A stretch of 64,000 nucleotides of DNA, taken from IMG/VR virus record IMGVR_UViG_3300026382_000175, positions 1 through 64,000 of that record; one strand, written 5' to 3'. How positions within the stretch are numbered: position 1 is the first letter of the stretch; every line of letters begins with the position of its first letter. Of the stretch, positions 39,585 to 61,640 are shown piece after piece. A model generated the notes under the pieces. It was not told the DNA's origin. It did no database searches and saw nothing but the letters and a program-made list of their open reading frames with translations. The translations under genes were made by a program, and so were the position numbers. This DNA is from a virus.

Positions 39585-40037
39585 TTATTGATTTGTAGTA
39601 TATTTCGTAAATTTCTTCAACATTGCTTCTGCAAATTCTTCTAGATCTAGCAATTGCCTTACTACATCTTTAGCATCTTCATATATTTCTCTCGTAGTCC
39701 ACTTCTTGCATATCTTAGCCAACTCATTATTTTCATCATAATACCCTTTCCAATCAAAAGGATGTGCATAATCCCAACCATACCACCAATACCCTTTTGG
39801 TAAGTAAACTCCATCACCTTTACTTGAAAAGGTAAAACCTCCATGAACACTAATAATACTTAAATCACCATAATCAAAACCAGCTAATATGTGATTCTCA
39901 GGAAGCCCTACATAAGCTACTGGGTGAGTTCCTAAAGACATTCCTATAATCCTAAAACCAAGACACTCTTCATCAAAGAGTGTTTCAGGTTTGTCTAACA
40001 TCTCTTTCTGGTAAATCATTTCCTTAAACTTCTTCAT
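39585..40037 (-). CDS. Conserved phage protein with VHGG...WW.GxDxAH pattern
   Basis: This is a 150-residue protein, the first leftward gene after the tandem promoters. It contains GYxGLPENH-like and ISVHGGFTFSSKGD, then GYWWYGWDYAHPFDW, a pattern (VHGG.TfS...WW.GFDcAH..D) shared by many hypothetical phage proteins. Histidines and aspartates in these motifs suggest an enzyme or metal site, but no activity is known to me. Confidence 0.6.
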   Translation of the reverse strand: MKKFKEMIYQKEMLDKPETLFDEECLGFRIIGMSLGTHPVAYVGLPENHILAGFDYGDLSIISVHGGFTFSSKGDGVYLPKGYWWYGWDYAHPFDWKGYYDENNELAKICKKWTTREIYEDAKDVVRQLLDLEEFAEAMLKKFTKYTTNQ

Positions 40038-40059: not shown

Positions 40060-40096
40060 TTTACTAAACTAAACTCAAATCAGGGAGAATTTCAGG
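40060..40096 (-). promoter_or_regulatory. Phage promoter-like motif P5 (leftward)
   Basis: On the minus strand: CCTGAAATTCTC, 10 bases, GTTTAGTTTAGTAAA. The second box begins 37 bases before ATG 40037. It is the promoter-proximal copy for the leftward early genes. Confidence 0.7.
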
Positions 40097-40119
40097 CTGG
40101 TTAATCTAAACTTTCTACT

Positions 40120-40156
40120 CACTATTAACTAAACCAATCTACCCTAGAATTTCAGG
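40120..40156 (-). promoter_or_regulatory. Phage promoter-like motif P6 (leftward)
   Basis: On the minus strand: CCTGAAATTCTA, 10 bases, GTTTAGTTAATAGTG. It lies 60 bases upstream of P5 and forms a tandem set with P5 and P7. Confidence 0.65.
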
Positions 40157-40178
40157 TTAAACCTATCCAACTATCCCT

Positions 40179-40215
40179 ATCTTAAAATTAAACTCTCTTA
40201 CTATCAAATTTCAGG
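40179..40215 (-). promoter_or_regulatory. Phage promoter-like motif P7 (leftward)
   Basis: On the minus strand: CCTGAAATTTGA, 10 bases, GTTTAATTTTAAGAT. It is the most degenerate of the three leftward copies, again about 60 bases from the next. Confidence 0.55.
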
Positions 40216-40225
40216 TTGGTAGTAA

Positions 40226-40260
40226 CCTGAAATTCTAATCCAATCCAGTTTAGTTTTATA
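40226..40260 (+). promoter_or_regulatory. Phage promoter-like motif P1 (rightward)
   Basis: CCTGAAATTCTA, 10 bases, GTTTAGTTTTATA. It lies 24 bases before ATG 40285, back to back with P7, so the region 40037-40285 drives both arms. Confidence 0.7.
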
Positions 40261-40284
40261 GATACCAATCAGAAGGAGGTTAGT

Positions 40285-40494
40285 ATGAGTAAGAAAACTT
40301 ACCAGTCCTTACAAGAGTGGTTATCCACTACTAATCCTATGAACAAGCACTACCTAGCTCAGATTATTTCCCTAATAACTATGTTAGAAGTAGGAGATGA
40401 GATTAGTTTAGGATTAGTTAAGATTAAGAAGGAGTCTCATACTGATAATGGTTATACTTTCTCAGTTAGTATAGATAGTTCTCTATTAGAGTAA
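40285..40494 (+). CDS. Small early protein, unknown
   Basis: This is a 69-residue protein (YQSLQEWLSTTNPMNKHYL), the first rightward gene after P1 with a strong SD (AGAAGGAGG). Its stop codon is followed at once by repeat R1. The first gene under a divergent control region may be a regulator, but no DNA-binding motif is clear. Confidence 0.5.
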   Translation: MSKKTYQSLQEWLSTTNPMNKHYLAQIISLITMLEVGDEISLGLVKIKKESHTDNGYTFSVSIDSSLLE

Positions 40495-40530
40495 TCCCCT
40501 ATTTTTCAGTAGGTTTCTTAAGTATTACAA
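40492..40530 (+). repeat. C-run repeat copy R1
   Basis: TAATCCCCTATTTTTCAGT continues AGGTTTCTTAAGTATTAC. The layout equals R4 at 42096-42130 with a shorter C-run. It overlaps the stop codon of the small gene before it. Confidence 0.65.
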
Positions 40531-40565
40531 CAACTTTCCCAATCTAGTAAGCTAGAGGAGGAGTT

Positions 40566-41639
40566 ATGATTAGGTTTGAGGAGTATGAAGAGGTATTAGT
40601 AAAGTTACAGGATAATTTAGATGATGAAAATAGTACTCTAACTTTCCTAGATGTATTAACTAAGTTAATAAGGGATTTATTAGGTACTCATTACAGTAAG
40701 TACAGCTGGGTAAGAGGACTTAACTTTGATGAGATAGCTCCTCAGATAGCTTTAGACTACTACCTTAAGGTAAAATCTGGTTTAAGGATTAACAAGTGGG
40801 GAATTTACTTGAGAAAGAGCTTAGCTAGTGATTTGGTAAAGTTTGCTCATCCTAAAGATGTGAGCTTTGATGACTTGCTTAAAACTCCTTACACTAAAGA
40901 TGAGGAAGATGACAAGGATTACCTAGTAGAAATCCAAGAACTGTGGAAAACCCTTTTCCCTCACTTAACTAAATCTGAAATCTTAATCTTAATAGAGCTC
41001 TCTACTGAGTATAAACTCTCTCCTTATGACAAGGTAAGAGGATTAGCTAAGTACTCTTACAGGAAAAGAATAGAACTAGCTAAAGTCTTAATGAAGTTAA
41101 CTTACTACTACAGAACTAAGGAGGTAAGCATGAACAGGGTAACATCTAACTCACTAGTAAGAACTTTAGCTGGAATTATGATTTCTCCTCTATTCCTAGT
41201 TCTAGACCTAGAAGACATGGCTAAGGTAATAGCTACTCTAGGAGGACAAACTGTACGCATTCCTACCTACACAGAACTACAAAAGTTAATCCCACTCATC
41301 ATCCTCTTCTATGAACACAAAATCAACAACAAATCCCTCTCAGAACTCTCTAAAAAGTTCAACCTAGACCGTAAAGACCTTTCCCTAATCCTAAACATCC
41401 TAAACCAAGTAAAGCTCTCAGATTACGAAAAGAAGAACCTAATCATTACCCTTTCCAAGCTTACCCAATTGGTAAATGCTCAAGACTCCTTCATATCTCA
41501 AAGACTACAGGAGATAGAAGATAAGCTCAGAAAGAACTCCAAAACAGCTCTAGAACTCTACAAATCCCTCTCTAAGGAAGAAGCTAAAGGATTAGAAGAC
41601 CTAATCAAGCTAACTACTGAGATAGTTAAATTACTCTAA
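40566..41639 (+). CDS. Putative transcription-related/HTH protein (sigma-like features)
   Basis: This is a 357-residue helical protein. The first part (FDEIAPQIALDYYLKVK, INKWGIYLRKSLASDLVKF) reads like a sigma-70 region 2 core-binding helix pair. A segment LFPHLTKSEILILIELSTEY may be an HTH-like unit. Around residue 255-285 LSELSKKFNLDRKDLSLILN is a good helix-turn-helix. It lies between the divergent promoter region and the C-run repeat region. A role in phage transcription or replication initiation is inferred; no firm family match. The second half has visibly more C-rich codons (such as CTCTCC) than the first, a curious shift. Confidence 0.45.
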   Translation: MIRFEEYEEVLVKLQDNLDDENSTLTFLDVLTKLIRDLLGTHYSKYSWVRGLNFDEIAPQIALDYYLKVKSGLRINKWGIYLRKSLASDLVKFAHPKDVSFDDLLKTPYTKDEEDDKDYLVEIQELWKTLFPHLTKSEILILIELSTEYKLSPYDKVRGLAKYSYRKRIELAKVLMKLTYYYRTKEVSMNRVTSNSLVRTLAGIMISPLFLVLDLEDMAKVIATLGGQTVRIPTYTELQKLIPLIILFYEHKINNKSLSELSKKFNLDRKDLSLILNILNQVKLSDYEKKNLIITLSKLTQLVNAQDSFISQRLQEIEDKLRKNSKTALELYKSLSKEEAKGLEDLIKLTTEIVKLL

Positions 41640-41835
41640 CCTACTCTACACTATCCTACTTACTTATCTTATACTCTCAACACTGCTATACTACTAATCT
41701 TACTAACCTAGTTACTCTACTTAACCCTGTTATCCAATCCTATTAGTTAGCTTACTATTCCAGTACTTTAGTTTTGAGTTAGATAGTTAGTTATATCGCT
41801 ATATACCCTTCTGATATTGATATAGTTATACTGAT

Positions 41836-41866
41836 ATCCCCCTTTTTCAGTAGGTATTACTTGATT
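41836..41866 (+). repeat. C-run repeat copy R2
   Basis: CCCCCTTTTTCAGTAGGTA then TTACTTG. It shares the core C-run, T-run, CAGTAGG with the other copies. Confidence 0.6.
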
Positions 41867-41935
41867 TACAATAGCTTTCTAGTATTACTTATTCAGTTAG
41901 ATAATTTTTGATTAGTAGTATAGTTAGTATATAGA

Positions 41936-41970
41936 TAATCCCCCCATTTTCAGTAGGTTTTCCTTGTATT
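41936..41970 (+). repeat. C-run repeat copy R3
   Basis: TAATCCCCCCATTTTCAGT followed by AGGTTTTCCTTGTATT. It shares ATAGATAATC before the C-run with R4 and its tail with R5 in the tape measure gene. Confidence 0.7.
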
Positions 41971-42095
41971 CCATAGGTTATCTCATTATTCGTAGAATAC
42001 TAATCTGATAGAGATATACTGGTAATGGTATAGGTAACAGGTATAGAGTTAGGTAAGTAGGTTAGATAGTACTCTTATACTACTATAAGTATAGA

Positions 42096-42130
42096 TAATC
42101 CCCCCCATTTTCAGTAGGTTTCTTAAGTAT
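42096..42130 (+). repeat. C-run repeat copy R4
   Basis: TAATCCCCCCCATTTTCAG followed by TAGGTTTCTTAAGTAT. It has the longest C-run (7). Its tail matches R1. Confidence 0.7.
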
Positions 42131-42258
42131 AGCAATATCTATCTCAGAATTAGTAATAGAAAACTTATGAATTACTATAACTAAGAGAAATAGAGATATG
42201 GGAAAACTAAGTAATTCAAGGAGTTATACATATTAGGGAAAATTATCTAACTAACCTA

Positions 42259-42293
42259 CCTGAAACTCTAACTCAGACTAGTTTAGTTATATA
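42259..42293 (+). promoter_or_regulatory. Phage promoter-like motif P8 (rightward)
   Basis: CCTGAAACTCTA, 10 bases, GTTTAGTTATATA. It is in tandem with P2 58 bases downstream, both before the primase-polymerase gene. Confidence 0.6.
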
Positions 42294-42316
42294 GAGTGGG
42301 AAAGTTATATACCCAA

Positions 42317-42353
42317 CCTGAAATTCTAATCCAATTCTGTTTAGTTTAGTAGA
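42317..42353 (+). promoter_or_regulatory. Phage promoter-like motif P2 (rightward)
   Basis: CCTGAAATTCTA, 10 bases, GTTTAGTTTAGTAGA. The second box starts 39 bases before ATG 42378, the same distance as at other copies. Confidence 0.7.
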
Positions 42354-42377
42354 ATAGGTTAACAGGAGGTTGTAAGT

Positions 42378-44612
42378 ATGGAATATAGAGTAGAGAGGAT
42401 AGTTCAGGTTAGTAGATATAAGAAGTTGGGAGAAGAGGTAGATAGGACTACTGGTATAGTTTTTGTTAAGTATTACGATAGGCATAAGAAAACTGAGTTT
42501 TCAGCCTTCAAAAGTAAAGAAGATGCTAGGAAGTACTGGGAATATTGGATTGGACACGACCCAGAGGCTTTAAAGTTCTACATAAGCAGTGCTACGATAG
42601 AGGGAGAGTTTTCAGACTTTACCAGAGATGTAATAGAGTTTGAAACTCCTAATGGTAATAGATATCTCTCCTACTACAAAACAGATTTCTCCTTTGGTAA
42701 GGATTCTAACTTTACCTTTGGAGTTCATGTTCCTAAAGGTACTACTCCTTACTATCCTACTGGTTGGTGGAATCTAAATGTACCTATGAAACCAGAAGAC
42801 AAATTGATAATAGGAGTAGGTTCTCAGGTTAATATGGGTAAAGCTTTCACTAAAGAGCTAACCATAGATGAGTTCATAAAACTTATGGAAGCTAAAGGTA
42901 AGTTCTACACTCCCTTTGTCTTTGAGAATAACAAGAGGAATAAAGCTAACGCTTACAGACCTGAAAATTCATTAACAATGATCTGCATTGACGTAGACGA
43001 TGATTTGAATTTGATAGATATTCTGAAAGAAAAAGATAAAAATGGGTTTGTTAATTCCTTTCTTAATAGAGTTACCTACTACCTAGAGCAAGTTAGTAAG
43101 AGTGGAGAAGGTTATCACTTCTTTGTACCTGTAAAGGTAAAAGACACTCAGCAACTCTTAAAAATTCTCAACTACCTTCAGCTAGAGTACAAAGGAATAG
43201 CAGATATTTCAGTATTTGAACCAGCTAGGCTAATCTTCTCCTCTCCTTACAGGATAAAAGAGGTTTCTAGGATAGCAGTTACTAGGAACTTTTATGCTGA
43301 TGTAGAGCTTACCCAATTAGAACCAGCTTCAGAGAGGTTAGAAAGAATCAAATCTCATCAGCTAACTATTGAGGGTCATAAGAACTATGTGAGGAATGAT
43401 GGAGCTCTCTACATAAGAACCTATGTAGATGGAGATAGGTTAGTTAAGTGGTTTGAGGAAAAGCATGGAAAACTAACTAGTAAAAAGCTTTTCTCAGTTC
43501 AAGTTACTTCTAATCGCCAATCTATTTCCTCTATAAGCAACGAAAATAGTAAGGTAAGTACTAAACCCTTAGGTAGGGGTAAAAAGTCCGATAATGGCCA
43601 AATAGATAAACGAGGAGGCAAATTTTGGGATGAGTTAAAAGCTAGTACCATAGCAACTGTGAAAGGAGATTTAAATCCAGTTTCAGATAAGAGTAAGGTA
43701 AGGGAATACCAGAGTGGGTTAATAGGATTGATTAAAGAGCTTTCCAAGTTAGCAGGATTTAAGTTCTATGAGTTCAACAGGTATGACAAAGATGGAAATG
43801 TAGTAGGTAATTATTACCAAATTTCAGTATCTCCTGATGAGAAATCTCCTATGGATATATTTCTGTATGATAACAACCCTGAGTTTTTCTACTTTCAATC
43901 TAAAAACGCTTTAAGACACTTCCCTAAGATATTTGAGGAGATAGTTAGCTATACTACTGATGGAAGACCTTGCTTACACATATCTTGGCTAATTAAACTG
44001 TTAAGCTTTATTTCCAAGAACTTCAAACCAGACTTCAACACAGCTAAGATTAAGGACTTGATTAAGAAGTATGGAATACATGAGAAGTATCTCTATTCTC
44101 ACTTTGAGGAAGTAGAAGGATATGTAGTAGAGCTAATCAAAGCTCTTATCAAGAAGAAAGGTAAACCTGTAAGAGTATCTAAATACATTCCTAAAGAAAT
44201 TATTAGCAAATCTAGAGTGTGGAGAAGTTTTAGGAAAGAGTTGGAAAGCTTAGGCTTTGTGTTTGAAAGGAAAAGAGGAGGGTTAGTAGTATATTGGGAC
44301 GAAGAGAAAAAGAAAGACATTGATTACCTGAAGTATAACTCTAAAGGGCTTTCTCCTAAACTGAGGAAAACCTTTAAGAAGTTCTTTGCAGTGGTAAGTC
44401 AGGAAACTTGGTTTGAAGAGATAGTAGTAATACTAGAAGAAAACTGGGTTAAGCATATGGTTTATTGGGTTAGGAAGATGGTAGGAGAGGAGTTGAGAAA
44501 GTGGGAAATGATGTTTAAACGAAAACTGCGAAGTGGAGAAATGTTGTGGTATGAGGATAAACAAAAGCCTATTAGTGCTTTGTCCTATGTGATTACTAGG
44601 ATGGTAGCTTGA
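42378..44612 (+). CDS. AEP-type primase-polymerase
   Basis: This is a 744-residue protein. Archaeo-eukaryotic primase motifs are visible: ICIDVDDD near residue 205 (motif I, DhD), SKSGEGYHFFVPV near 242 (motif II, sGxGxH) and ISVFEPARLIFSS near 281 (motif III plus the basic residue). The N-terminal 190 residues (FGVHVPKGT..YYPTGWW) are an accessory domain, and the C-terminal 350 residues are helical without a Walker A, so no helicase is fused. The linker at about 395-415 carries repeat L2. It probably makes primers or starts synthesis at the phage origin. The window also encodes a separate CHC2/TOPRIM primase, which is unusual. Confidence 0.75.
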   Translation: MEYRVERIVQVSRYKKLGEEVDRTTGIVFVKYYDRHKKTEFSAFKSKEDARKYWEYWIGHDPEALKFYISSATIEGEFSDFTRDVIEFETPNGNRYLSYYKTDFSFGKDSNFTFGVHVPKGTTPYYPTGWWNLNVPMKPEDKLIIGVGSQVNMGKAFTKELTIDEFIKLMEAKGKFYTPFVFENNKRNKANAYRPENSLTMICIDVDDDLNLIDILKEKDKNGFVNSFLNRVTYYLEQVSKSGEGYHFFVPVKVKDTQQLLKILNYLQLEYKGIADISVFEPARLIFSSPYRIKEVSRIAVTRNFYADVELTQLEPASERLERIKSHQLTIEGHKNYVRNDGALYIRTYVDGDRLVKWFEEKHGKLTSKKLFSVQVTSNRQSISSISNENSKVSTKPLGRGKKSDNGQIDKRGGKFWDELKASTIATVKGDLNPVSDKSKVREYQSGLIGLIKELSKLAGFKFYEFNRYDKDGNVVGNYYQISVSPDEKSPMDIFLYDNNPEFFYFQSKNALRHFPKIFEEIVSYTTDGRPCLHISWLIKLLSFISKNFKPDFNTAKIKDLIKKYGIHEKYLYSHFEEVEGYVVELIKALIKKKGKPVRVSKYIPKEIISKSRVWRSFRKELESLGFVFERKRGGLVVYWDEEKKKDIDYLKYNSKGLSPKLRKTFKKFFAVVSQETWFEEIVVILEENWVKHMVYWVRKMVGEELRKWEMMFKRKLRSGEMLWYEDKQKPISALSYVITRMVA
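43558..43620 (+). repeat. Linker repeat L2 in the primase-polymerase gene
   Basis: It encodes KPLGRGKKSDNGQIDK and matches the minus-strand sequence at 11163-11230 in the tape measure gene (41 of 48 bases by hand). The identical 20-base end segment covers ATAATGGCCAAATAGATAAA. Confidence 0.65.
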
Positions 44613-44636
44613 CCAGTATTATGTATTACTCAAAAA

Positions 44637-44705
44637 GTATTACTTAGTAATATTAAGTTTTGTTGATCCTAGCAAATTTTGAATACCAGTAATACTTAGT
44701 ATTAC
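44637..44705. repeat. 69-bp two-palindrome element, copy B
   Basis: GTATTACTTAGTAATAT, 9 bases, core TTGATCCTAGCAAATTTTGA, link, GTAATACTTAGTATTAC. Same length and spacing as copy A at 17374-17442. It sits between the primase-polymerase stop and promoter P3. Confidence 0.8.
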
Positions 44706-44738
44706 TGATTTCACAAATCGTAATACTGCTAAAGTTAG

Positions 44739-44776
44739 CCTGAAATTCTAAGGTTAGTTGGTTTAGTTTAGTAAAC
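44739..44776 (+). promoter_or_regulatory. Phage promoter-like motif P3 (rightward)
   Basis: CCTGAAATTCTA, 10 bases, GTTTAGTTTAGTAAAC. The second box starts 33 bases before ATG 44794 and is itself a GTTTA/TAAAC inverted repeat. Confidence 0.7.
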
Positions 44777-44793
44777 AATTTTAGGAGGTTGTT

Positions 44794-45000
44794 ATGACTA
44801 GAGTACTAAACATCTCAGGAGAGTGGGATGGGAAGGAAATAGTAGGTCATCTAAACTTTAGTGCAGGAGAGTTTTGGTTAGACATTAGTCAAAATGGGAG
44901 AATGGTAGAAATCAATGAAGGGGAATTTGCACTAGCCAAGTTCTTACAGCTTCTCCTAGATGAATTGGGAGAGGAATTTCTAACTGAACTTAAGAAGTAA
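44794..45000 (+). CDS. Small protein before SSB, unknown
   Basis: This is a 68-residue protein (beta: GEWDGKEIVGHLNFSAGEFWL; then a helix with an acidic start). It is the first gene after P3, followed by the SSB gene. The small beta fold could be a transcription or SSB partner, but no family is recognised. Confidence 0.5.
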   Translation: MTRVLNISGEWDGKEIVGHLNFSAGEFWLDISQNGRMVEINEGEFALAKFLQLLLDELGEEFLTELKK

Positions 45001-45039
45001 ATTGAATTGGAATTCATAAAACTTAACAGGAGGATAGTT

Positions 45040-45975
45040 ATGGGATTCAAGAAACCAGACCTAAATGCTATTAGGCAAATGCAAGAGCAGTTCCAATCTT
45101 CAAAATCTAACCAAACTGATTACAGGTGGGCTAGCTTACCTGAGAAAGGAGAAACTATCAAAGTAAGATTCCTACCTCCAGTAGGAGAAATGAACTTACC
45201 TTTCTTCAAGCTTTATAAACACTACCAAGTACCTAATCCAGAAGGAGAAGGTACTCTTAATTTCACTTGTCTTAGGACTTGGAATATGGAGTGTCCTATA
45301 TGCTCTAAAATTGAGCACTTAAAGAGGAAGTTTGGAGATGATTTCGTTAATCAGTGGTATGCTAGTATGAGAGGCTTCTTTAATGTGCTAATCAAAGATG
45401 ATCCTAACTATGTATCAGGACTACCTTACATTTTAGGTATGCCTAAGTCAGGTTTAATTTGGTTTTTAGGAATAATGGGAGATGAGGACTATGGAGACAT
45501 AACTGATCCTTATACAGGCTTTTGGGTTAAGATTAGCAGAATGGATAACAACCAGCTTAGGTTTGACATAGTTCCTAAACCTAGTCCAATAGCCTCTACT
45601 GATGAGGAAATTAACCAAATAGCAGAGCAGTGTTTTGACCTTACTAAGATTTGGAGAAACCCTGATGATGAGTACATTATAACAGCTAACAAGATAGCTG
45701 ATAGGATTGAAGCAATAGTTAAAGAGAAAGCAGGATTACTAGAAACAGGTAAAAGCGTAGTAGAAACTCCCAACCAAGTTAATCCTAATCCTGTTAACAT
45801 TACTAAACCTACTCCAGTTCCTCAACCAACTCAACCTAAAGTTGAACCTAATCAATCTTCTGTTCAGAAGCCTCCAGGAGCTCCAGATTGCTTTGGTAAC
45901 TTCAATGAAAGTGACACTAGATGTCTAATTTGTATCCACGAAATAGAATGTAGGCAAGCTACTCAAGGAGGGTAA
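45040..45975 (+). CDS. Single-stranded DNA-binding protein, gp32-like
   Basis: This is a 311-residue protein. ATG 45040 has AGGAGGA directly upstream and is preferred over an upstream TTG at 45007. The core includes YRWASLPEKGETIKVRFLPP, a gp32-like zinc module (His in LYKHYQVP, then CLRTWNMECPIC: H..C-x7-C-x2-C), and RGFFNVLI. After a Pro/Gln-rich linker there is a second Cys cluster (CFGNFNESDTRCLICIHEIEC) in place of the usual acidic tail; T4 gp32 lacks this. It coats ssDNA and coordinates helicase, recombinase and polymerase. The extra C-terminal cluster is the odd point. Confidence 0.82.
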   Translation: MGFKKPDLNAIRQMQEQFQSSKSNQTDYRWASLPEKGETIKVRFLPPVGEMNLPFFKLYKHYQVPNPEGEGTLNFTCLRTWNMECPICSKIEHLKRKFGDDFVNQWYASMRGFFNVLIKDDPNYVSGLPYILGMPKSGLIWFLGIMGDEDYGDITDPYTGFWVKISRMDNNQLRFDIVPKPSPIASTDEEINQIAEQCFDLTKIWRNPDDEYIITANKIADRIEAIVKEKAGLLETGKSVVETPNQVNPNPVNITKPTPVPQPTQPKVEPNQSSVQKPPGAPDCFGNFNESDTRCLICIHEIECRQATQGG

Positions 45976-45976
45976 A

Positions 45977-46261
45977 ATGTTTAAAATACTTTACATCAAT
46001 TCTGAACTAGAACCTAGTATTCAAGCTTCAATTAGGAGAAGATATCAGGACTATTTAACAGATAACCCATTACTAGCGATAGTAGAAGTTTCTAATGTAG
46101 AAGCTCCTAAGATTGTTAATGAAACGACTGAGGGGGAGAGGTTGGTTATCCCTCCCTCTCTTTTGGATTCAGTTATGGAAGAAGTTTTATATGCTTTAGA
46201 GAATCAAGATGGTAAATATTTGATTTCTTTTATGGAAGGTTTAGTTAAGCAAAACAATTAG
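45977..46261 (+). CDS. Small protein between SSB and UvsX, unknown
   Basis: This is a 94-residue protein (ILYINSELEPSIQASIRRRY; later MEEVLYALENQDGKYLISFM). It has a mixed fold, 1 base after the SSB stop. Recombination mediator proteins (UvsY) sit near UvsX in T4-like phages, but there is no sequence reason to call it UvsY. Confidence 0.45.
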   Translation: MFKILYINSELEPSIQASIRRRYQDYLTDNPLLAIVEVSNVEAPKIVNETTEGERLVIPPSLLDSVMEEVLYALENQDGKYLISFMEGLVKQNN

Positions 46262-46273
46262 GAGAGGTTAAGC

Positions 46274-47410
46274 ATGGCTAAAAAGGATGTTGATATTTTT
46301 GAAACTGGTTCTGCTTTAGATAAGATTAAAGAGTTAGCTAGTACTTCTTCTCTTACCTACGAGACTGGTATATATCCTCTAGATGCTTTGTTATCAGGAG
46401 GGATTCATTCAGGTAAGATTTATGAGGTATTTGGTAAGGAAAGCTCTGGTAAATCTACTTTAGCTCTGCACTTAGCTAAAGCATATTTAGACTTTTGGAA
46501 AGATGAAGGTAATGTACTTTGGATAGAGAGTGAGAGTGCTTTTGATGTTCAAAGGGCTGTTGCATTTGGAATAGATTTGTCTAAAGTATTAGTTCAAGAA
46601 GTAGAGATAGTTGAAGATGGATTTGAGTTAATAGAGAAGGTTCTAAAGAAGGCTGAGCAAGTAGGTAGGAAAGTGTTTATAGTGTGGGACACTATTGCCT
46701 CTTGTTCAACTAAGAAGGAAAAGGATGATGGTCAATTTGGAGGAGGTATTTCTGAGAAAGCTAGGATGATAAGAAGCCTCTTGAGGAGAATTACCATTCC
46801 TCTAGGTAAAACTGATTCAGTGTTACTTTTTGTTAACCAAGTGTACGATGTTATAGGTAGCTATACCAATGAGGTGGAAAGTCCTGGAGGTAGAGGTATT
46901 AAGTTCCACGCTTCTACCAGAATTCTAATAGAACAGAAAGCTCAGATTAAGAAAGTAGTTAACAATGTAGAAATTCCAGTAGGAATTAAGTCCAAGCTTA
47001 CTCTTAAGAAGAACAAGTTAGGACTTCCAGGACTTTCAACTATGTTAGTTATATTTGGAGAGAAAGGAATAGATAAGTGGGCTACTATAACAGATTTCCT
47101 TAAGCAACTACCTGAGGTTAAGAAGAGTGGAGCTTGGTTTACATTAGAGTTACCTGATGGAAATTCTATTAAGTTTCAGAATGAAAAACTCTTAAAACAA
47201 AAGGTAGAGGAAAATCCTGAACTAGAGGAATTCATTAAGTACCTCATCTATAAGTACTATGCTGAACTTTCTATGTTTATGAAAATCAAGTTTTATGATT
47301 GGTTAATAGAGGTAGAAACTAAGTGGTATGGTAAACCTATTACCCAACTAAATGAAGAGGAAGAGAAGCTTTACCAAACTTTTAAAGAGGTAAAGGATGA
47401 AATTGGTTGA
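46274..47410 (+). CDS. uvsX: RecA/UvsX-like recombinase
   Basis: This is a 378-residue protein. Walker A GKESSGKST (about residues 54-62), a central VLWIESESAFDVQRA segment, Walker B KVFIVWDTIAS and a DNA loop region around DDGQFGGGISEKARM are all RecA-type. FVNQVYDVIGSY and SPGGRGIKFHAS also match RecA/UvsX. It catalyses strand exchange for recombination-dependent replication. The C-terminal 100 residues are not RecA-like. Its end overlaps a DUF29-like gene by 14 bases. Confidence 0.88.
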   Translation: MAKKDVDIFETGSALDKIKELASTSSLTYETGIYPLDALLSGGIHSGKIYEVFGKESSGKSTLALHLAKAYLDFWKDEGNVLWIESESAFDVQRAVAFGIDLSKVLVQEVEIVEDGFELIEKVLKKAEQVGRKVFIVWDTIASCSTKKEKDDGQFGGGISEKARMIRSLLRRITIPLGKTDSVLLFVNQVYDVIGSYTNEVESPGGRGIKFHASTRILIEQKAQIKKVVNNVEIPVGIKSKLTLKKNKLGLPGLSTMLVIFGEKGIDKWATITDFLKQLPEVKKSGAWFTLELPDGNSIKFQNEKLLKQKVEENPELEEFIKYLIYKYYAELSMFMKIKFYDWLIEVETKWYGKPITQLNEEEEKLYQTFKEVKDEIG

Positions 47411-47870
47411 AGAGCTTAAATCTTTATTGGACTTGCTTTATGAAAAAGCAAGGAAGGTTTCTGATGTAGAGAATAAAGTTACAGGTTTGTGGTATCAAGT
47501 AATTAAGCACTTGATTAAACTATACCAGTATCAAGACCCTTACGATAGAGATAAACATATAAGAGATTTAGCAACCTATGTGTATGATATACTGGAGTAT
47601 TTAGACTCTTCCAAATCTCCAGTTTCAGAAAGAAAGCTAAGAAAGTGGTTCAATTGGGATAACATAGATAGGAGTATAAAGATTAAAATCAGGCAAGTAC
47701 ATAACAGGTACACAGCTATTAGACCTAAGTTGTCTGATGAAGAAACTATTAAGATAGTTAAAGACAAACTAGCCCAACTTTTACCTTGCTTGTCTAACAT
47801 AGACATTGATTGTGTAGAGAGTTGGATTAATCAGATTAGAGCTGAGGTTCAAAATGAGGATAATTCTTAA
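47397..47870 (+). CDS. DUF29-like protein, paralogue 1
   Basis: This is a 157-residue helical protein. LWYQVIKHLIKLYQYQDPYD then a helix with HIRDLATYVYDIL matches the DUF29 pattern (a HL.K...q...R...W...I). It is paralogous to 55766-56215 and 63312-63794, which share the LW..I..H..KLY segment, a KLRKWF/KLYDWY segment and a C-terminal ..I...V..K...LL.CL segment. It overlaps both UvsX and the UvsW-like gene. The function of DUF29 is unknown. Confidence 0.65.
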   Translation: MKLVEELKSLLDLLYEKARKVSDVENKVTGLWYQVIKHLIKLYQYQDPYDRDKHIRDLATYVYDILEYLDSSKSPVSERKLRKWFNWDNIDRSIKIKIRQVHNRYTAIRPKLSDEETIKIVKDKLAQLLPCLSNIDIDCVESWINQIRAEVQNEDNS

Positions 47871-49371
47871 AGATAAATTTTGCTACATTGAAGGCTCTCC
47901 TTGGGAAATAAGGAGAGCCAAATCTATCTTAACTTGGAGAGATAAGAATACAGGATTTTCTTATTATCTGTTTAGAGAGTTAGAGAAGAATAAACTACTG
48001 GAAACTTATTGGGGAATTTACTTTTACTTAAAAGATTGGGTTAAACACGAGTTAGTTTTAGAGACTGATTACTACCCAATCTTGCTTAGATTAGGTAAAG
48101 TTCAACCTAAGTTAGTTAAGGAAATTGATTCTAACCTTCTTCCAGGAATTACTCTATTTCCTCATCAGTTAGTAGGAGTTAGAAAAGCTTTACTCTATAA
48201 AACTGGAGTAATAGAAGTTGCTACTGGTGGTGGAAAAACTGAAATGTTTATAGCTACAATAAAGTGGATTTTGGAGAACGAAAATTCTGATGCTAGGTTC
48301 CTTGTAGTAGTTCCTTCAGAGTTCTTACTGAACCAAACTTATGAAAGGTTCTTGAAAAGAGGATTTTCTAAATCTCAGTTAGGTAAGTATTATGGTAAGC
48401 AAAAGAAGTTAGGTCAAATAACAATAAGATTGATAAACTCTGTTAACAAAGCTTTTGATGAAAACAATCCAGATTTAGGTTTTCTCAATTGGCATAAAGA
48501 ACTGTATGGATTAGTAATTGATGAGGCTCATCACATTAGAGGAGAAACTTATAAAAGACTTCTCCTTAACTCTATGCATGCTGAGTACATTCTAGGTTAT
48601 TCAGGTTCACCTTATAAGGAAACTGTGGAAACCAACTTTGGAGACGCTATTATCCAAGCTATTACAGGAGGAGTTATTTACAGAGTACCTATGTCTTACT
48701 TGGTAAAGGAAGGATTGTTAGCTCAAATGTATGTTTACTTTGAGAAATTAGGAGGACAGTTTGCTCAGTTTCCTACTTTATGGAATGAAGTTTATACTAA
48801 GTATATAGTTGAGAACAAAGAGCGTAATGAGAAAATTATTGAGTGGATTAGGTTCTTCCAAGAGTGGAAAGTTCCAACTTTAGTATTAGTTCAAAGATTA
48901 GCTCATGGTAAAAAGCTACTTAACATGCTTAATGATGATAAATCAGTTTGTATATTTGGAGGAGGAGAGTGTTATATCTGTGAACATGGAGGATTGGTTA
49001 ACATAGGAGAGATAGATTACTCAGAGCTTAAGAGGAAAGTAGAGAATGGAGAAATCCTAACGATTATAGCTTCCCAAGTTATGGATGAAGGAGTTGATTT
49101 ACCTGAAGTAGGAGCAGTTATAATGGCTGGAGCAGGTAAGTCTTCTATTAAGCTAAAGCAAAGGATAGGTAGAGGAGCTAGGAAAGGTTCTACAGGAGTT
49201 AGTTTTTTGGTTGACTTCAAAGATATTGGTCATGTTTACCTTTATGCTCAGTATAAGAAAAGGAAGGAACTTTATCAAGAACAAGCTATTGAAGAGATAG
49301 ATAATTCAGTTGAATTTAAGAAGAAGGTAATAGAAGTTTATGGAAAGGAGGTAGAAAATGAAAAGATTTGA
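47854..49371 (+). CDS. SF2 DNA helicase, UvsW-like
   Basis: This is a 505-residue protein. Motifs: LFPHQLVGVRKAL (Q-like), ATGGGKTE (Walker A, about residue 122), VIDEAHH (about 223), YSGSPYKE (III), then ASQVMDEGVDLPEVG (V) and QRIGRGARKG (VI). The N-terminal 90 residues differ from the core. UvsW remodels branched DNA and R-loops, and its place after UvsX supports that role. It overlaps the DUF29-like gene by 17 bases. Confidence 0.85.
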   Translation: MRIILKDKFCYIEGSPWEIRRAKSILTWRDKNTGFSYYLFRELEKNKLLETYWGIYFYLKDWVKHELVLETDYYPILLRLGKVQPKLVKEIDSNLLPGITLFPHQLVGVRKALLYKTGVIEVATGGGKTEMFIATIKWILENENSDARFLVVVPSEFLLNQTYERFLKRGFSKSQLGKYYGKQKKLGQITIRLINSVNKAFDENNPDLGFLNWHKELYGLVIDEAHHIRGETYKRLLLNSMHAEYILGYSGSPYKETVETNFGDAIIQAITGGVIYRVPMSYLVKEGLLAQMYVYFEKLGGQFAQFPTLWNEVYTKYIVENKERNEKIIEWIRFFQEWKVPTLVLVQRLAHGKKLLNMLNDDKSVCIFGGGECYICEHGGLVNIGEIDYSELKRKVENGEILTIIASQVMDEGVDLPEVGAVIMAGAGKSSIKLKQRIGRGARKGSTGVSFLVDFKDIGHVYLYAQYKKRKELYQEQAIEEIDNSVEFKKKVIEVYGKEVENEKI

Positions 49372-49708
49372 AGTTAAACACATTTATGGTAAGTATGAAG
49401 GTGATAGAGGAGAACTCCTTTATCGCCACACTACTTGTGATGAAGAAGGAAGAGAATACAATGTAGAGATTAGAAAGATTGATGAAGAAACTTGTTTGGT
49501 AGAAGTTACTTCTATGGATGAATCACAACCAGAAGGTTGTGAAGTTTTAGTTAAAGCAGTTGGAGCAGATAATGTATTTATTGAAGCTTATGAACCTCGT
49601 GAACATTGGCAAGTTGTATTTGAACTTGAAGAAAATAATGAGGAGAAAGAAATAAAAATTGGATTGGGATTATTGCATCTATTAGATTTGCAAATTAAAC
49701 CTCTCTAA
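49358..49708 (+). CDS. Unknown protein, 116 residues
   Basis: An acidic, beta-rich protein (EYNVEIRKIDEETCLVEVTS; WQVVFELEENNEEKEI) overlapping the helicase end by 14 bases with AAGGAGG before ATG. A hairpin follows it. No family recognised. Confidence 0.45.
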   Translation: MKRFEVKHIYGKYEGDRGELLYRHTTCDEEGREYNVEIRKIDEETCLVEVTSMDESQPEGCEVLVKAVGADNVFIEAYEPREHWQVVFELEENNEEKEIKIGLGLLHLLDLQIKPL

Positions 49709-49714
49709 CTTGAG

Positions 49715-49737
49715 CTTAGTCTATTATAGAGACTAAG
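49715..49737 (+). terminator. Hairpin after the UvsX-UvsW operon
   Basis: A perfect 8-bp stem CTTAGTCT / AGACTAAG with a 7-base loop lies 6 bases after the stop. Only a weak A/T tail follows, so termination may be partial. Confidence 0.45.
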
Positions 49738-49776
49738 TAGTAAAAAGCTTGTGTTTAAGGTTGGTGGAGGAGTGGT

Positions 49777-50253
49777 ATGTTTAGTTTACTAGAGCTGATT
49801 CCTAAAAGTGTAGCTGAGAAGCTTAAAACTCTTCAGGTTAAAGAACTTAACAGGTATGTTCAATACTTAAAGGAAACTGTTAAGGAAAGGGTAATAACTC
49901 TTTTGCATTACAGAAACCACAACTTAGAAGCTCTATCTTCTATACCTGAATTTCCTTACCAAGTAGGTTTATTTTGGGTAGGACAGTTAGACTCTAGGAG
50001 GAGGCTAGAACAAGATAGAGATGACCCTTTAGTTATTCAAACCGTTTGGAATAAGGACATTTTCCTATTCCCTACTCTAGTGTTCCAATCTCAACAAGAT
50101 TTAGAAAATTGGTTAGATAACCAAATCTGGGATAATCAACCTTTTTTGTATAGGGAGGGTAAGGTTTACTACTATGAAAACTTCTTACCTTTAGGAGATA
50201 AGAGGTATTCTTCAATATCAATATTTTACAATAAGCTGTATCCTCTTTTGTGA
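49777..50253 (+). CDS. Unknown protein, 158 residues
   Basis: It starts with helices (SLLELIPKSVAEKLKTLQVKE) and ends with an aromatic-rich part (FLYREGKVYYYENFLPLGD). The gene has GGAGGAG before ATG. No family recognised; it belongs to a run of small unknown genes between UvsW and primase. Confidence 0.45.
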   Translation: MFSLLELIPKSVAEKLKTLQVKELNRYVQYLKETVKERVITLLHYRNHNLEALSSIPEFPYQVGLFWVGQLDSRRRLEQDRDDPLVIQTVWNKDIFLFPTLVFQSQQDLENWLDNQIWDNQPFLYREGKVYYYENFLPLGDKRYSSISIFYNKLYPLL

Positions 50254-50261
50254 GGTGAATT

Positions 50262-50447
50262 ATGCCATGTATCCCTTACTGGGAACTGATAAGAGGAAAG
50301 TGGGTGTTCAAAATCTTAATAGTAAGTGATAGGGATAAGGTTATTTACGATGGAGAATTCAACAAGAAGGATCAAAAGCTACTTAAACTGATTGAAGAGT
50401 ACTCAGATGATTTTGAAAGGTTTAAACAAAGGTATTTGGAGGGCTAG
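50262..50447 (+). CDS. Small unknown protein, 61 residues
   Basis: It contains WVFKILIVSDRDKVIYDGEF, a beta-rich segment followed by an acidic/basic helix. It starts 8 bases after the previous gene with GAGGTG. No family recognised. Confidence 0.45.
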   Translation: MPCIPYWELIRGKWVFKILIVSDRDKVIYDGEFNKKDQKLLKLIEEYSDDFERFKQRYLEG

Positions 50448-50449
50448 GT

Positions 50450-50896
50450 ATGTTGGATAAAGTACTATTTTATTCAGAGAAAGTGCTTGAAAGTATAGGT
50501 ATAAAGAGAGAGTGGCAATATAGAAGCCTTAATGTAGTTAGTTTAATAGGATTATTAATTGGGATAATAGTTTCATTAACTTATCCTTTCAAATATTCAG
50601 CTAATGATTACCTTTTACTATGGATTCTCAGAGGAGTTGGAATAGTTATTGTTGGGTTTGTTTTCCACATATTCTACTTTTTGTTAGGAGCTTGTTTAGA
50701 TGAAATAAATGATGAAGATATTAATTTTGCTGAGTTGATTGGGCTTATAATATTTCTTATAACACTTTTTGTAGTTTCAGTTGTATTAGGTAGTTGTGTT
50801 GGTATTGTAGGGATACTAATAACCTTTCTGTTCCAGAAATTAACTAAAGTTAAAGTTAGAAATATTTTCCTTTTTCTTAAGGGAGGTACAAAATGA
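50450..50896 (+). CDS. Integral membrane protein, 3-4 TM helices
   Basis: This is a 148-residue protein with hydrophobic segments VVSLIGLLIGIIVSLTYPF, LWILRGVGIVIVGFVFHIFY and LIGLIIFLITLFVVSVVLGS plus a following one. It is the only clear membrane protein in the window. Holin or superinfection-exclusion roles are possible, but there is no adjacent lysis gene, so no function is assigned. Confidence 0.65.
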   Translation: MLDKVLFYSEKVLESIGIKREWQYRSLNVVSLIGLLIGIIVSLTYPFKYSANDYLLLWILRGVGIVIVGFVFHIFYFLLGACLDEINDEDINFAELIGLIIFLITLFVVSVVLGSCVGIVGILITFLFQKLTKVKVRNIFLFLKGGTK

Positions 50897-51207
50897 AATA
50901 TAAGTGGTGGGATAAATTAGATAATGCTACTAAAGAGTTTCTTGAAGACAATGGGTGTTTTCCTTTTGGGGTTGAATTGAATTTTGTTTATAAAGCAGAT
51001 AGAAAGCGTTTTGATATTGAGAGGTGGCTAAATACTGAATTAAATATTTGTCATCCTGTTAAGAACGCATTGGAAAAGTTACCAAATGTAGTTAAGGTAA
51101 CTAAATGTGAATTAGATGAGAATGGTGTTTTACATATAGAACTAGAACTTCTTAGAAAAGCTTCTGGTATTAGCTCTAGAAATGAAGCTAAAGATAATGG
51201 AAGTTAG
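50893..51207 (+). CDS. Unknown protein, 104 residues
   Basis: It starts KWWDKLDNATKEFLEDNGCF and is mixed in character. Its start overlaps the membrane protein gene by 4 bases, so they are co-expressed. No family recognised. Confidence 0.45.
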   Translation: MKYKWWDKLDNATKEFLEDNGCFPFGVELNFVYKADRKRFDIERWLNTELNICHPVKNALEKLPNVVKVTKCELDENGVLHIELELLRKASGISSRNEAKDNGS

Positions 51208-51255
51208 AAGCAAAGAAATTTACTATTTCCAAAATATCCAAAAGGAGGGTTAGCT

Positions 51256-51843
51256 ATGCTAGTTCCAGTACTTACTACCAACATGGTTTATATCCCTGAT
51301 TTTTGTCCTCAGTGTGGTAATTCTTTATCAGTTAAGTTTTCATTTGAAAATGGTATGCCTTTCATAGCTTGTGATAACTGTGACTACAAGAGAGAGTTCA
51401 TTCTCTTTAAAGAATGTCCTAAGTGTGGAGGTAAAATGAAGTACATTCATAAACACAACAAGTTTAAATGTGATGGTTGTAATACTTGGTATGAAGTAGA
51501 GTTGAAAGAGTCTGATTCTTCTAGAAGAAGAAATTTCCAAATATTGGAAACTCTTTTAAATAAGGAAAATTTTAAGGGGATTGATTTAGCAGAATTCTCA
51601 AAAGATTTAATTGTCCCTTTTCCAGATTCTAATAGTGAGGTAGAAATTCAGAATATTTGGAAAGAAATATTTAGTGAGTCTCTACAAAAGGAAATAATTG
51701 ATCACATTCTGAATTCAGAACAATTTGAGAAAGGAATAGAGAAAAAGATAGCAGAATATGTTACTGAGAAATTGAAAGAACAAATTAGCATACAAGTAAT
51801 TGATGATATAGTTAGTGCTCTTGAGACTTATAAAAGAATTTAA
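51256..51843 (+). CDS. Zinc-ribbon protein, 195 residues
   Basis: The first 75 residues carry FCPQCGN, ACDNCDYK, CPKCGGK and CDGC, that is, two tandem CxxC-CxxC zinc ribbons. The remaining 120 residues are helical. Such ribbons often bind nucleic acid or RNA polymerase. It lies in the primase-proximal cluster of zinc proteins. Function unknown. Confidence 0.6.
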   Translation: MLVPVLTTNMVYIPDFCPQCGNSLSVKFSFENGMPFIACDNCDYKREFILFKECPKCGGKMKYIHKHNKFKCDGCNTWYEVELKESDSSRRRNFQILETLLNKENFKGIDLAEFSKDLIVPFPDSNSEVEIQNIWKEIFSESLQKEIIDHILNSEQFEKGIEKKIAEYVTEKLKEQISIQVIDDIVSALETYKRI

Positions 51844-51853
51844 GAGGGATTGA

Positions 51854-52051
51854 ATGATAATGAGGATTAAAGCTTGGATAGGGAAAGAATGTCACTGTAA
51901 CTATTGTGGAAGTTCTGTAATATTTACTAATGATAGTTCTAAAGGTAGAGATTATTTTCTTTATTGTTGTAACAAGGATTGTCCTTATCATAAAGGGCAA
52001 CCTGTTTACGATGATGAATTTCCTGAGTGGCTTTACTTAAAAGATGATTAG
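51854..52051 (+). CDS. Small zinc-finger protein, 65 residues
   Basis: It has CHCNYCGSSVIF and CCNKDCPYHKG, a C..C....C...C-H type site. The gene ends 9 bases before the primase start. The pattern is similar to C-terminal topoisomerase zinc fingers. Function unknown. Confidence 0.55.
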   Translation: MIMRIKAWIGKECHCNYCGSSVIFTNDSSKGRDYFLYCCNKDCPYHKGQPVYDDEFPEWLYLKDD

Positions 52052-52060
52052 AGGCCTAAA

Positions 52061-53056
52061 ATGGTTCTTAAAAACTTTCCCTTTGACTATAAGGTTAAGC
52101 CTTCAGACCCTAACGAAATTCAAATTTGTTGTCCTTTCTGTGAGAAGTTAGGTAAGACTCCTGATACTAAATACCACTTATACATTCACTTAAAGAAAAA
52201 GGTATTTCACTGTTTTAGGTGTGGTAAGTCTGGTAAGTTCAGAACCTTAAACCAACTTATAAGAATTCTAACAGGTAAAAGTCCTAATCTGCTTGAGAGC
52301 GATTGGGATGAAATTATTAAGGAAGCTTTAAGCTACTTTGACAAATCTTTCTATTTACCTGAAACTTCCCAAGCTCAAGAAGTTTTAGACCTGAATATTA
52401 TTTCCTACCCAGTTAGTAAAACTCTTACTCCAATAGCTTACAACTACCTTAAGAGTAGGAATCTAAGCGATTCTGAGATAGAGGAATATCAGATAAGGGT
52501 TGGTAAGTCTTACCAAGTTGATAACAAAACTATAAGGAAGTGGAAAGGTAGGGTTTTATTCCCATTCTTTGAGAATGGTCAAGTTATTTACTTAGTAGGT
52601 AGGACTTATACCAACCAAGAGCCTAAATACCTCAACTCTAAAGGTAATCGTAGAGATAAGCTATTCCCTAGCAGAACTTTCAAAACTTCTGAAATCATAG
52701 TTTGTGAAGGTATATTTGATGTAATCAATGCTAAAAGGACTACTGGAATATACAGCGTAGCTACATTAGGTAAAGAGATAACAGAAGAGCAGGTTAACAT
52801 TATGGTAGAGAATGGAGTTAGAACAGTTTACCTAGCATTAGACCCAGACTTAACTATTAAAGAATGGCAAAAGAACATCTGGAAATTCCTAGTTAAAGGT
52901 TGTAAGGTTTATCCAGTATTACTCCCACAAGGTTATGATGTAGACTCTATTGGAAGTAGGTTTCCTTATTACCTAGAGTTAGCTTTGAAGAAAAATTTTC
53001 TATCAACCCTCTTATTTCAGCCTGAAATTCTAGTTCAAACCTGTTTAGTTTATTAA
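52061..53056 (+). CDS. DnaG-like primase (CHC2 zinc ribbon plus TOPRIM)
   Basis: This is a 331-residue protein. The N-terminal zinc ribbon has ICCPFCEKLG ... VFHCFRCGKSG (residues about 23-60). The TOPRIM domain has IIVCEGIFDVINA (catalytic Glu, about 216), SVATLGKEITEEQV and VYLALDPD (about 261). This is the DnaG/gp61/TraC layout. It primes lagging-strand synthesis with the DnaB-like helicase at 56241. The last 12 residues are encoded by promoter motif P4, so the C-terminus is shaped by that control site. Confidence 0.85.
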   Translation: MVLKNFPFDYKVKPSDPNEIQICCPFCEKLGKTPDTKYHLYIHLKKKVFHCFRCGKSGKFRTLNQLIRILTGKSPNLLESDWDEIIKEALSYFDKSFYLPETSQAQEVLDLNIISYPVSKTLTPIAYNYLKSRNLSDSEIEEYQIRVGKSYQVDNKTIRKWKGRVLFPFFENGQVIYLVGRTYTNQEPKYLNSKGNRRDKLFPSRTFKTSEIIVCEGIFDVINAKRTTGIYSVATLGKEITEEQVNIMVENGVRTVYLALDPDLTIKEWQKNIWKFLVKGCKVYPVLLPQGYDVDSIGSRFPYYLELALKKNFLSTLLFQPEILVQTCLVY

Positions 53057-53058
53057 AC
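53021..53058 (+). promoter_or_regulatory. Phage promoter-like motif P4 inside the primase 3' end
   Basis: CCTGAAATTCTA, 10 bases, GTTTAGTTTATTAAAC; the second box starts 36 bases before ATG 53079. The flanking CCTGTTTA / TAAACAGG form an inverted repeat. It is entirely within the primase reading frame. Confidence 0.7.
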
Positions 53059-57826: not shown

Positions 57827-60800
57827 ATGAACTCCAGATGTGAAATCTGTAAACTTTATAAGCAATGCAAGACTCACTTTGTTAAGCCCAGAGGTAATTT
57901 AGAAAATCCTAATATTATAATAGTAGGAGAAGCCCCTGGGTGTGTTTCTGGAGACACATTAATAGAAGTTGCTTTTAGGGATGTATCCAAATATCCAAAA
58001 GGAATACCTATAAGAGAGTTAGTGGGGAAGAAGGACTTTTATGTCTATTCTTATGATATTGAAAAAGATAGACTGGTTCTTGGGAAAGTTAAGAAGGTAT
58101 GGAAGACTGGAACGAAAATGACTTACAAGGTTACTTATAAGTGGAAAGCTGCTACTCAAGACGGTGAGGTGAAATGGTTTGAAGATTCTATTATTGTAAC
58201 TTCTAATCATAAGTTCTTACTTAAAAAAGCTAAACCAAAAGATCCGTTTAAAGGTATTAATACAAATGTGGAATATGAATACCTTTCTATTGATGAAGGG
58301 TTAACCGTAGGACATAGTATAATGCCATTCTACAGACGCTTTTATAGTGAAAGAGATAAGCGATACACTTTTATAGGTGTATCACATGACACTATGCAAC
58401 CAGAACATAAGTTCTTAATGGAGTTTTTAACTGGAAAAGATTTAGGAGGAAGAAAGTATAATGTCCATCATAAAGATGGAAATGGTTTGAATAATACTTT
58501 GGAAAATCTTGAAGTTCTTACTGTAGCTGAACATGCAAGGATTCACAAGTTAGAATCTAACCCTATGCACGACCCTGTTGTAAGAGAAAAACATAGGCAA
58601 GTTCTTTCTTCCAAAGAGTATAGGGAAAATATGAGTAGAATTATGAAAGAAAAGTTGAGGTCAGATAAAGAATTATATGAAAGAAGAGTAAAGCAACTTT
58701 TAGAAGCAGGTAAGAAAACAAGATTTAAGAAAGGTGAACTTGATCCTGTTAATTACTATAAAAGACTTCTTTCTTATGTGAGAAAAGGTAAGAGAACTCT
58801 AGAATGGGTAGAAGAGAGATTCAAATCTAAGTTTCCAGATTTACCATTTCCACCCATAGATAACCATATTATTGTTTCTATTGAACCTTATGGAGTGATA
58901 GATGTTTACGATATGGAAGTAGAAAAGTATCATAATTTTGTAGCTAATGGAATTATTATTCATAATTCCACTGAAGATAAGCAAGGGAAACCTTTTGTAG
59001 GTAAATCAGGTAAATTATTAGAAGAAGTATTTAGGCTCTTCAATAAGAAATTTGAAGAAGTTTGCTACATAACTAATGTAGTTAAGTGTTGTCCTTATGC
59101 AGACCTTTTTAATCCTAGTAAAGGAGTTAGGCCTCCTACTGATAAGGAAATAGAATGTTGCCTTCCTTTTCTGTTAGAAGAACTAGAAAAGTTTAAGGGT
59201 AAAGATGTCGTTATAATGCCTTTAGGTAATACTGCTTTGAAAGGATTAGGTATAAAAGGTAAGATTTCTGAGTTAGCTGGTAAAGAACTAAAGTGGAATG
59301 GGTTTAAGGTTATTCCTAACTTTCATCCTGCTTCTATTTTAAGGAACCCTAAGTGGAAGCAAAAGTTTATATCAGTATTTGGTAAAGTACTAGACAATAG
59401 GCAAGTGGAGTGGGAGAATTTAATTAAACCTTTACAACCTAAAGAAGCTATCAACTTTTTACAGAAGAAACTTGAGGAGAAACCTGAATGGTTTTGTTTT
59501 GATATAGAAACAGATGGACTTAATCCATTTAAAAATAGAATAATTATGCTTACTTTTTCATTTCCAAATGACCCTTATGGTTATGTAGTTCCTTTATATC
59601 AAAAAGACCCTTTACCAGGAGATAATTATGATGTTTTTAATGTTGTAGTAGATAATATTTCTAAGCAAAAGGTATTACAACTTACAAAACAGTTATTAGA
59701 AACTATTCCTGTTATTGGGCATAACATTAAATTTGATTTAAAATTTATGGTAACTAAAACAGGTTTGGATTTATCCAAAGTTAAAGTAAAAGACGACACA
59801 TTATTTTTAGCTCATTTTGTATTTAACAAGGTTCAACTTGGAGAGACTTTACAACTTAAAGACATAGCTGTTAAGGTATTAGGTTTAGATGGTAGATGGG
59901 ATGAAGAAGTTAAGGAATATTTAAAGTCAAGGTATCGTCTAAGGAAAGATAGACATTATGGAAATATTCCAACTTCTTTACTAATTAAGTATGCTGGATT
60001 TGATATTCTCTTTACTAAAGAGATTTATTTAGTGCTTTCTGAGAGAGTTAAAGTATTTAACTGTGACGAGATTAGGGAAGCTCTTAATAAGGCTACAATT
60101 ATGATAGCTGAATCTGAAATAAAAGGAGTTAAGGTAGATAAACAAGTTAGAGATTTTCTTGACTATAAATATCAGTCTGAAATAGAAAGAGCTGAAAAAG
60201 AGTTACAGGAATTACCTAAAATTAAGAAATGGAAAGAACTAAGAAAAGTATCTTGGTTTAATCCTTCTTCTCAAAAACATCAAAAGGAGGTAGCATTTAA
60301 AGTCTACCAATTACCTGTAGTAGAAACAACTCAAAAAGGACAGCCTTCTTTAGGTAAGAATGCTATTAACATATATTTCTCCTCTCTTCCAGAAGGTTCA
60401 GAAGAAAAACGATTTATAGAATTGTTTTACAGAATAAAACTTTTCAAAAAATTAAAGTCAACCTACATAGATGGATTTATAAGTAGTATAGACGACCTAG
60501 GGATGTATCATCCTGAATTCAACATAGCAGGAACAATAACAGGTAGATGGTCATCAGGATGGCATACTGTTGCATCAAAGTCCGACATTAAGAGAATGTT
60601 TGTTAGTAGGTGGAAAGATAAAGGAGGACTTATAGTTAGCTTTGATTATTCTCAGTTAGAGGTTAGAATTGCCTCAAGTCTTTCCAATGAAACTAAACTC
60701 ATAGAAGCTTATAAGCAAGGGATAGATGTTCATAAAAGAACTGCTTCTATGATATTTAATAAGCCTATGGAAGAGATTACTAAGCAAGAGAGGAAGATTG

Positions 60801-61540: not shown

Positions 61541-61576
61541 TAGGTAGGAAATTTACCTACTTTGTAAGAAAACCAC

Positions 61577-61604
61577 TTGCCTTCTCTTGAAAAAGGCCTA
61601 TAAT
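61577..61604 (+). promoter_or_regulatory. Host sigma-70-type promoter before the sigma-like gene
   Basis: TTGCCT, 16 bases, TATAAT, ending about 36 bases before ATG 61641. This is the best standard bacterial promoter seen in the window, so this gene is likely transcribed by host polymerase independent of the phage motif. Confidence 0.6.
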
Positions 61605-61640
61605 TATAGATAAGGAAACAAAACTGGTCAGGGAGGAGAG

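Follow-up and report, generated by a model that had tools for sequence, protein, structure and literature searches.

A two-box motif recurs ten times in the genome of a tailed phage, mostly in intergenic, gene-proximal positions, and its orthologous copies change in concert among related phages. Together with the wide conservation of the motif, this supports the proposal of an earlier note on this DNA, made from the sequence alone: the motif is best interpreted as a promoter that is specific to the phage and recognised by a dedicated factor. We consider it probable that the motif is the promoter of middle operons, read by host RNA polymerase carrying the ECF-like sigma factor encoded at 61641, which would itself be made from a host-type promoter.

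The 64-kb window analysed here opens an 80,914-bp virus record (G000) of a tailed phage whose tail is contractile. The minus strand encodes the sheath, major capsid protein, portal and terminase; the plus strand carries genes for a RecA-like protein, a helicase, a primase, an exonuclease, a DnaB-like protein, DNA polymerase A and SbcC/D-like proteins. Genes for ribonucleotide reductase and thymidylate synthase lie leftward of the strand switch. The large terminase shares about 40% identity with its counterparts in Rhizobium (Kleczkowskaviridae), Escherichia IME392 and Acinetobacter phages. Two genome-collection scans gave no match to a host or prophage; protein composition hints at a thermophilic host, with a rough estimate of 65-69 C. 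The DNA polymerase A gene (57827-61540) contains a uracil-glycosylase domain and, near the N-terminus, an HNH-containing intein. Two ORFs for N4/N6 DNA methyltransferases, one of them apparently partial, are found at 65368-66141 and 66778-67257 of the full record (L012:3368-4141, 4778-5257).

Copies of the motif and their placement

All eight copies listed in the earlier note are present in the window, with exactly 10 bp between the boxes in each of them; the plus-strand positions stand, while the minus-strand coordinates given there are low ends and about 2 bp off (Table 1). Two more copies in the rest of the record bring the number to ten. Both boxes are perfect, with G or T as the last variable base, at 42317, 44739 and 53021. 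One mismatch is found in the gene-proximal leftward copy, two in the copy at 40226, three in the second leftward copy and four in that at 42259, and the weakest copy, with seven, was recovered from CCTGAAATT. Shuffled windows yielded no match at three mismatches or fewer. The ten copies score 25.7-38.0 bits against a maximum of 18.2 in 20 Markov-1 genomes, a margin that is somewhat flattering because the 25-column matrix was built from these same ten sites. Two additional matches above 20 bits lie deep in genes, at 55529 (exonuclease) and 62924 (SbcD-like). In the relatives neither follows the consensus of clade B described below, and we therefore rejected both as coding coincidences.

Table 1. 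Positions of motif copies, candidate readers and the predicted host-type promoter
Feature	Position	Strand	Context and score
Motif copy	40226..40260	+	Before 40285-40494 and 40566-41639; 36.1 bits
Distal tandem motif copy	42259..42293	+	32.5 bits; next copy 58 bp downstream
Motif copy	42317..42351	+	Before 42378-44612; 38.0 bits
Motif copy	44739..44773	+	Before 44794 and recombination/helicase operon; 38.0 bits
Motif copy	53021..53055	+	Primase gene 3' end, before 53079; 36.3 bits
Gene-proximal leftward motif copy	40062..40096	-	Before 39585-40037 and nucleotide-metabolism genes; 37.1 bits
Second leftward tandem motif copy	40122..40156	-	32.0 bits
Third leftward motif copy, degenerate	40181..40215	-	25.7 bits
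Two further motif copies	66123, 66179		Full record, outside the window
Second candidate regulator, P0001, 357 aa	40566..41639	+	N-terminal half variable, C-terminal half conserved
Host sigma70-type promoter (predicted), TTGCCT-N16-TATAAT	61577..61604	+	36 bp upstream of the sigma-like gene ATG
Candidate reader, ECF-sigma-like, P0002, 216 aa	61641..62291	+	Profile, fold and divergence pattern

Eight of the 12 matches have their midpoint outside ORFs, which cover 92.4% of the genome (P = 4e-7), and the remaining two real copies each lie partly in the 3' end of a gene, immediately ahead of the next one. The copies precede replication and nucleotide-metabolism operons; none of the ten stands before structural genes. 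In the gene-proximal copies of clade A, box 1 starts 55-61 bp upstream of an RBS-preceded ATG, and the distance of 33-39 bp from the second box to the ATG, as reported earlier, is exact. In every tandem, the distal copy lies 56-60 bp upstream of its neighbour, often with a weaker box 2; such copies may add polymerase loading or may simply be old duplications.

The suggestion of a degenerate -35/-10 pair agrees with the layout, which fits a sigma70-family promoter, CTGAAW-N18-TAGTTT, in clades A and B; of the four clade C copies, one is displaced by 1 bp and one lacks a clear -10. In the proposed promoter, CTGAAA-N18-TAGTTT, the -35 element would fall in box 1 (CCTGAAATTCTA) and the -10 element in box 2 (GTTTAGTTTAGTA); transcription is predicted to begin about 3 bp past box 2, which would give leaders of about 18-24 nt. 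The motif is conserved across about 25 columns spanning both boxes, which is indeed wider than sigma70 needs.

The motif in related phages

We read the motif in three other phage lineages, which together with G000 form clades A (G000, G001), B (G002) and C (G010 and G004, taken as one phage because they overlap at both ends with 98-99.7% identity; 58,829 and 23,647 bp). G001 (84,995 bp), mostly 90-95% identical in DNA to G000 where alignable, carries the identical motif at matching places, including the degenerate third leftward copy (at 59084). G002 (88,755 bp) carries eight copies at orthologous places, of the form CCTGAATTTCT(A/T/C)-N10-CTTTA with CCTAAA as the single exception, and a TGA before box 2 is conserved in six of them. 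The clade C phage has four copies, roughly CCTGAATTTT-N12-GTYTATTTTTAGT, in which box 1 is kept and box 2 rewritten. They lie before the homologue of 40285, across the divergent region, before the homologue of 45007 and at the 3' end of the primase gene, and all four of these places also carry a copy in G000. Orthologues of the 40226 copy are found at G001 59095, G002 24683 and G010 15565, those of the 44739 copy at G002 19071 and G010 11880, and those of the 53021 copy at G002 11327 and G010 5500. The distance from box 1 to the ATG in clades B and C is mostly 56-65 bp; it is 69 bp for one B copy and, by a crude rule, 79 bp for the copy at G010 16363.

The change in clade B is concerted: GTTTAGTTTA has become CTTTAGTTTA in all eight copies. 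At motif position 23, all 20 A copies have G and all eight B copies have C, and an in-gene look-alike at G002 88291 retains the G. Since the change runs in parallel through all copies, one trans-acting reader is expected; as the product of neutral drift, or of function inside single genes, such a pattern would be hard to explain. G001, G002 and G004 come from one metagenome, which thus holds all three dialects. A contig combining an A-type sigma gene with the B-type motif (G003) was rejected as a natural recombinant; it is probably an assembly chimera, because the switch falls in the SbcD-like gene, where related contigs break. A collection match from a mis-spaced motif scan (L030) was likewise set aside as chance-like, on a contig without motif copies.

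Other repeated elements accompany these genomes. A second element, a C-run followed by ATTTTCAGTAGGT with a TACAAT-like end (TTTTCA-N17-TACAAT), occurs four times in G000 (40497-40538, 41838-41879, 41941-41982 and 42102-42143), four times in G001, five times in G002 (two before small tail-region genes) and three times, as ATTTTCAGAATGT, in G010. In A and B, the 40566 gene has one copy immediately upstream, and the element is possibly another promoter class. AT-rich blocks at 44613-44740 and 17341-17461 contain palindromes like GTAATACTTAGTATTAC with a common core, and similar blocks precede genes in G002 (40328, 53439) and G010 (31510). We also looked upstream of the terminase genes for a common late-promoter motif, with no clear result.

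Candidate readers of the motif

The products of 40566 and 61641 had both been named as possible readers. We favour the 61641 product, P0002, for its ECF-sigma-like sequence and fold, the host-type promoter upstream of its gene and a divergence that matches the boxes, and regard the 40566 product, P0001, as the weaker candidate. P0002 matches Pfam Sigma70_r2 weakly (E 0.15-0.19; 12 bits against a 24-bit cut-off). Among 93 phage proteins, it scores highest against an RpoE/FecI profile, at 29.7 compared with at most 19.3 for 60 column shuffles, and aligns in the canonical register over regions 2.1-2.4 and 4. Sigma factors make up most of the top matches in a PDB fold search, led by the M. tuberculosis ECF factor SigL (probability 0.72), with modest scores, no match at E 0.001 or better and a model of modest confidence (pLDDT 62). 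The C-terminal stretch that aligns with RpoE region 4 is predicted to be helical and is 77-95% conserved across clades. No relatives of P0002 or P0001 were detectable in 50,697 phage records.

The region-4 HTH is 95% (B) and 77% (C) identical to the window protein, and region 2.3-2.4 is 68% (B) and 25% (C) identical. Conservation of region 4 thus appears to track the near-fixed box 1, and divergence of region 2.3-2.4 the changed box 2, the pattern expected of a sigma factor whose region 4 recognises box 1 and whose region 2 recognises box 2, in a comparison that spans three clades only and was made post hoc, after viewing the data.

A host-type promoter sequence precedes the sigma-like gene or its operon in all lineages. 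The TTGCCT-N16-TATAAT of G000 is identical in G001, where the sigma-like gene is second in the operon; G002 has TTGACA-N17-TATATT before the operon containing the gene, and G004 has TTGACT-N16-TATATT 34 bp before the gene. Because sigma70 consensus sites show no genome-wide enrichment, the argument draws on this repeated position in sequence-divergent lineages. Around 61541-61720, the sigma-like gene of G000 is about 60 N-terminal codons shorter than in G001 and G002, and the genes that separate promoter from sigma gene in those two phages (236 aa in both; also 101 aa in G002) are missing, so that the host-type promoter abuts the sigma-like gene. A near-perfect TTGACA-N17-TATATT also stands at 67879-67930 of the full record (L012:5879-5930), where it leads into an operon that includes a ParB-like gene, and is conserved in G002 (83741); the ORF caller had read its TTG as a start codon. 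It is probably another immediate-early promoter.

We infer promoter activity, start sites, reader and timing as follows. Host RNA polymerase with its main sigma factor would transcribe the 61641 gene early, from TTGCCT-N16-TATAAT. The 61641 sigma factor with the host core would then turn on the motif operons for replication and nucleotide metabolism, including the regulator gene at 40566, whose product could be a later regulator.

It is unlikely, though it deserves weighing, that P0001 itself reads the motif, whether as a divergent sigma factor or as an activator, in either role with positive autoregulation, leaving the 61641 protein for the late genes. The 40566 gene adjoins the cluster of motif sites, and residues 51-185 of P0001 are 95-98% identical in G001, where the motif is the same, and 44-49% in G002, where it has changed. 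P0001 also ranks second of the 93 phage proteins against a broad sigma profile, and the first 90 residues of its model are confident helices (the model is poor beyond residue 90). Yet the same profile score is reached by an HTH-like stretch of an unrelated phage protein, P0001 has no Pfam or PHROG match, and its fold search was uninformative, with no sigma factor among the matches. Moreover, because the 40566 gene itself sits behind a motif copy, this reading would need a separate start-up promoter.

More improbable still is a host sigma factor as the reader, with phage proteins merely modulating it. The geometry does match a sigma70-family promoter with degenerate hexamers, and the genome-collection scans found no host whose sigma consensus could be compared. 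Against this, G000 has host-type TTGACA/TATATT promoters elsewhere, the conservation of the motif covers about 25 columns, and all copies change jointly between phages of one metagenome. That the boxes are an RNA leader structure, a replication iteron or a packaging signal is very improbable: the 53021 copy has a strong hairpin (z -2.7) and motif copies are concentrated around the strand switch and the turn in GC skew, but the other five of the six folded copies have no strong hairpin (z between -0.9 and +1.8), which led us to reject an RNA-hairpin function, the copies at 53021, 66123 and 66179 are far from the cluster, and proximal copies keep a near-fixed distance before genes.

If reading by the 61641 sigma factor is right, it sets out how transcription is programmed in a phage group not described before. 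It would also supply a naturally occurring set of sigma orthologues, each with its matching promoters, a route to learning what residues of a sigma factor determine promoter choice and how a regulator can change jointly with every one of its sites; the pairs could find use as orthogonal promoters. Tentatively, related phages living together might even carry mutually insulated sigma/promoter pairs, the -10 specificity of an orthologous sigma having changed and every target promoter having been rewritten. A, B and C phages would then not activate one another's genes in a mixed infection.

Comparison with known phage sigma systems

What is new here is the motif, a sigma-like family that seems unassigned and an orthologous series with shifted promoter spelling. 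In Bacillus phage SPO1, the early sigma factor gp28, made by the host polymerase, turns on middle operons, whose promoters have a TTT-rich -10 and an AGGAGA-like -35. The order from early sigma to middle operons and the TTT-rich -10 resemble what we propose; we saw no sequence relation.

In Salmonella phage 7-11, the sigma factor SaPh711_gp47 serves eight bipartite late promoters, GTAAtg-16-aCTA, before non-early genes, and early genes have host sigma70 promoters (PMC8948821); the sigma-dependent promoters had earlier been predicted from sequence (PMC4331800). The 7-11 sigma factor has region 4, and promoter positions, not sequences, are conserved with phiEco32 (PMC8948821). Our phage shares with 7-11 the bipartite (here predicted) promoters before non-early genes, the host-sigma70-type promoters and the keeping of position while sequence changes, and its motif shows two features of the 7-11-type promoter class, several near-identical copies and -35/-10 geometry. 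The promoter sequence differs, however, and the 7-11 sigma gene lies deep in the late cluster, whereas the 61641 gene lies directly behind a host-type promoter. Furthermore, the 7-11 and phiEco32 sigma factors were acquired independently, while here one orthologous family seems to have shifted in specificity.

The phiEco32 protein gp36 has been called an ECF sigma factor (PMC7881722), and a small phage-encoded ECF-like sigma that reprograms host RNA polymerase is what we infer here too. In contrast to the two-box motif and the region-4-like stretch of P0002, phiEco32 has middle/late promoters with the single element tAATGTAtA and a sigma factor without region 4 (PMC8948821). By analogy, the cascade proposed here would work like those of phages 7-11 and phiEco32.
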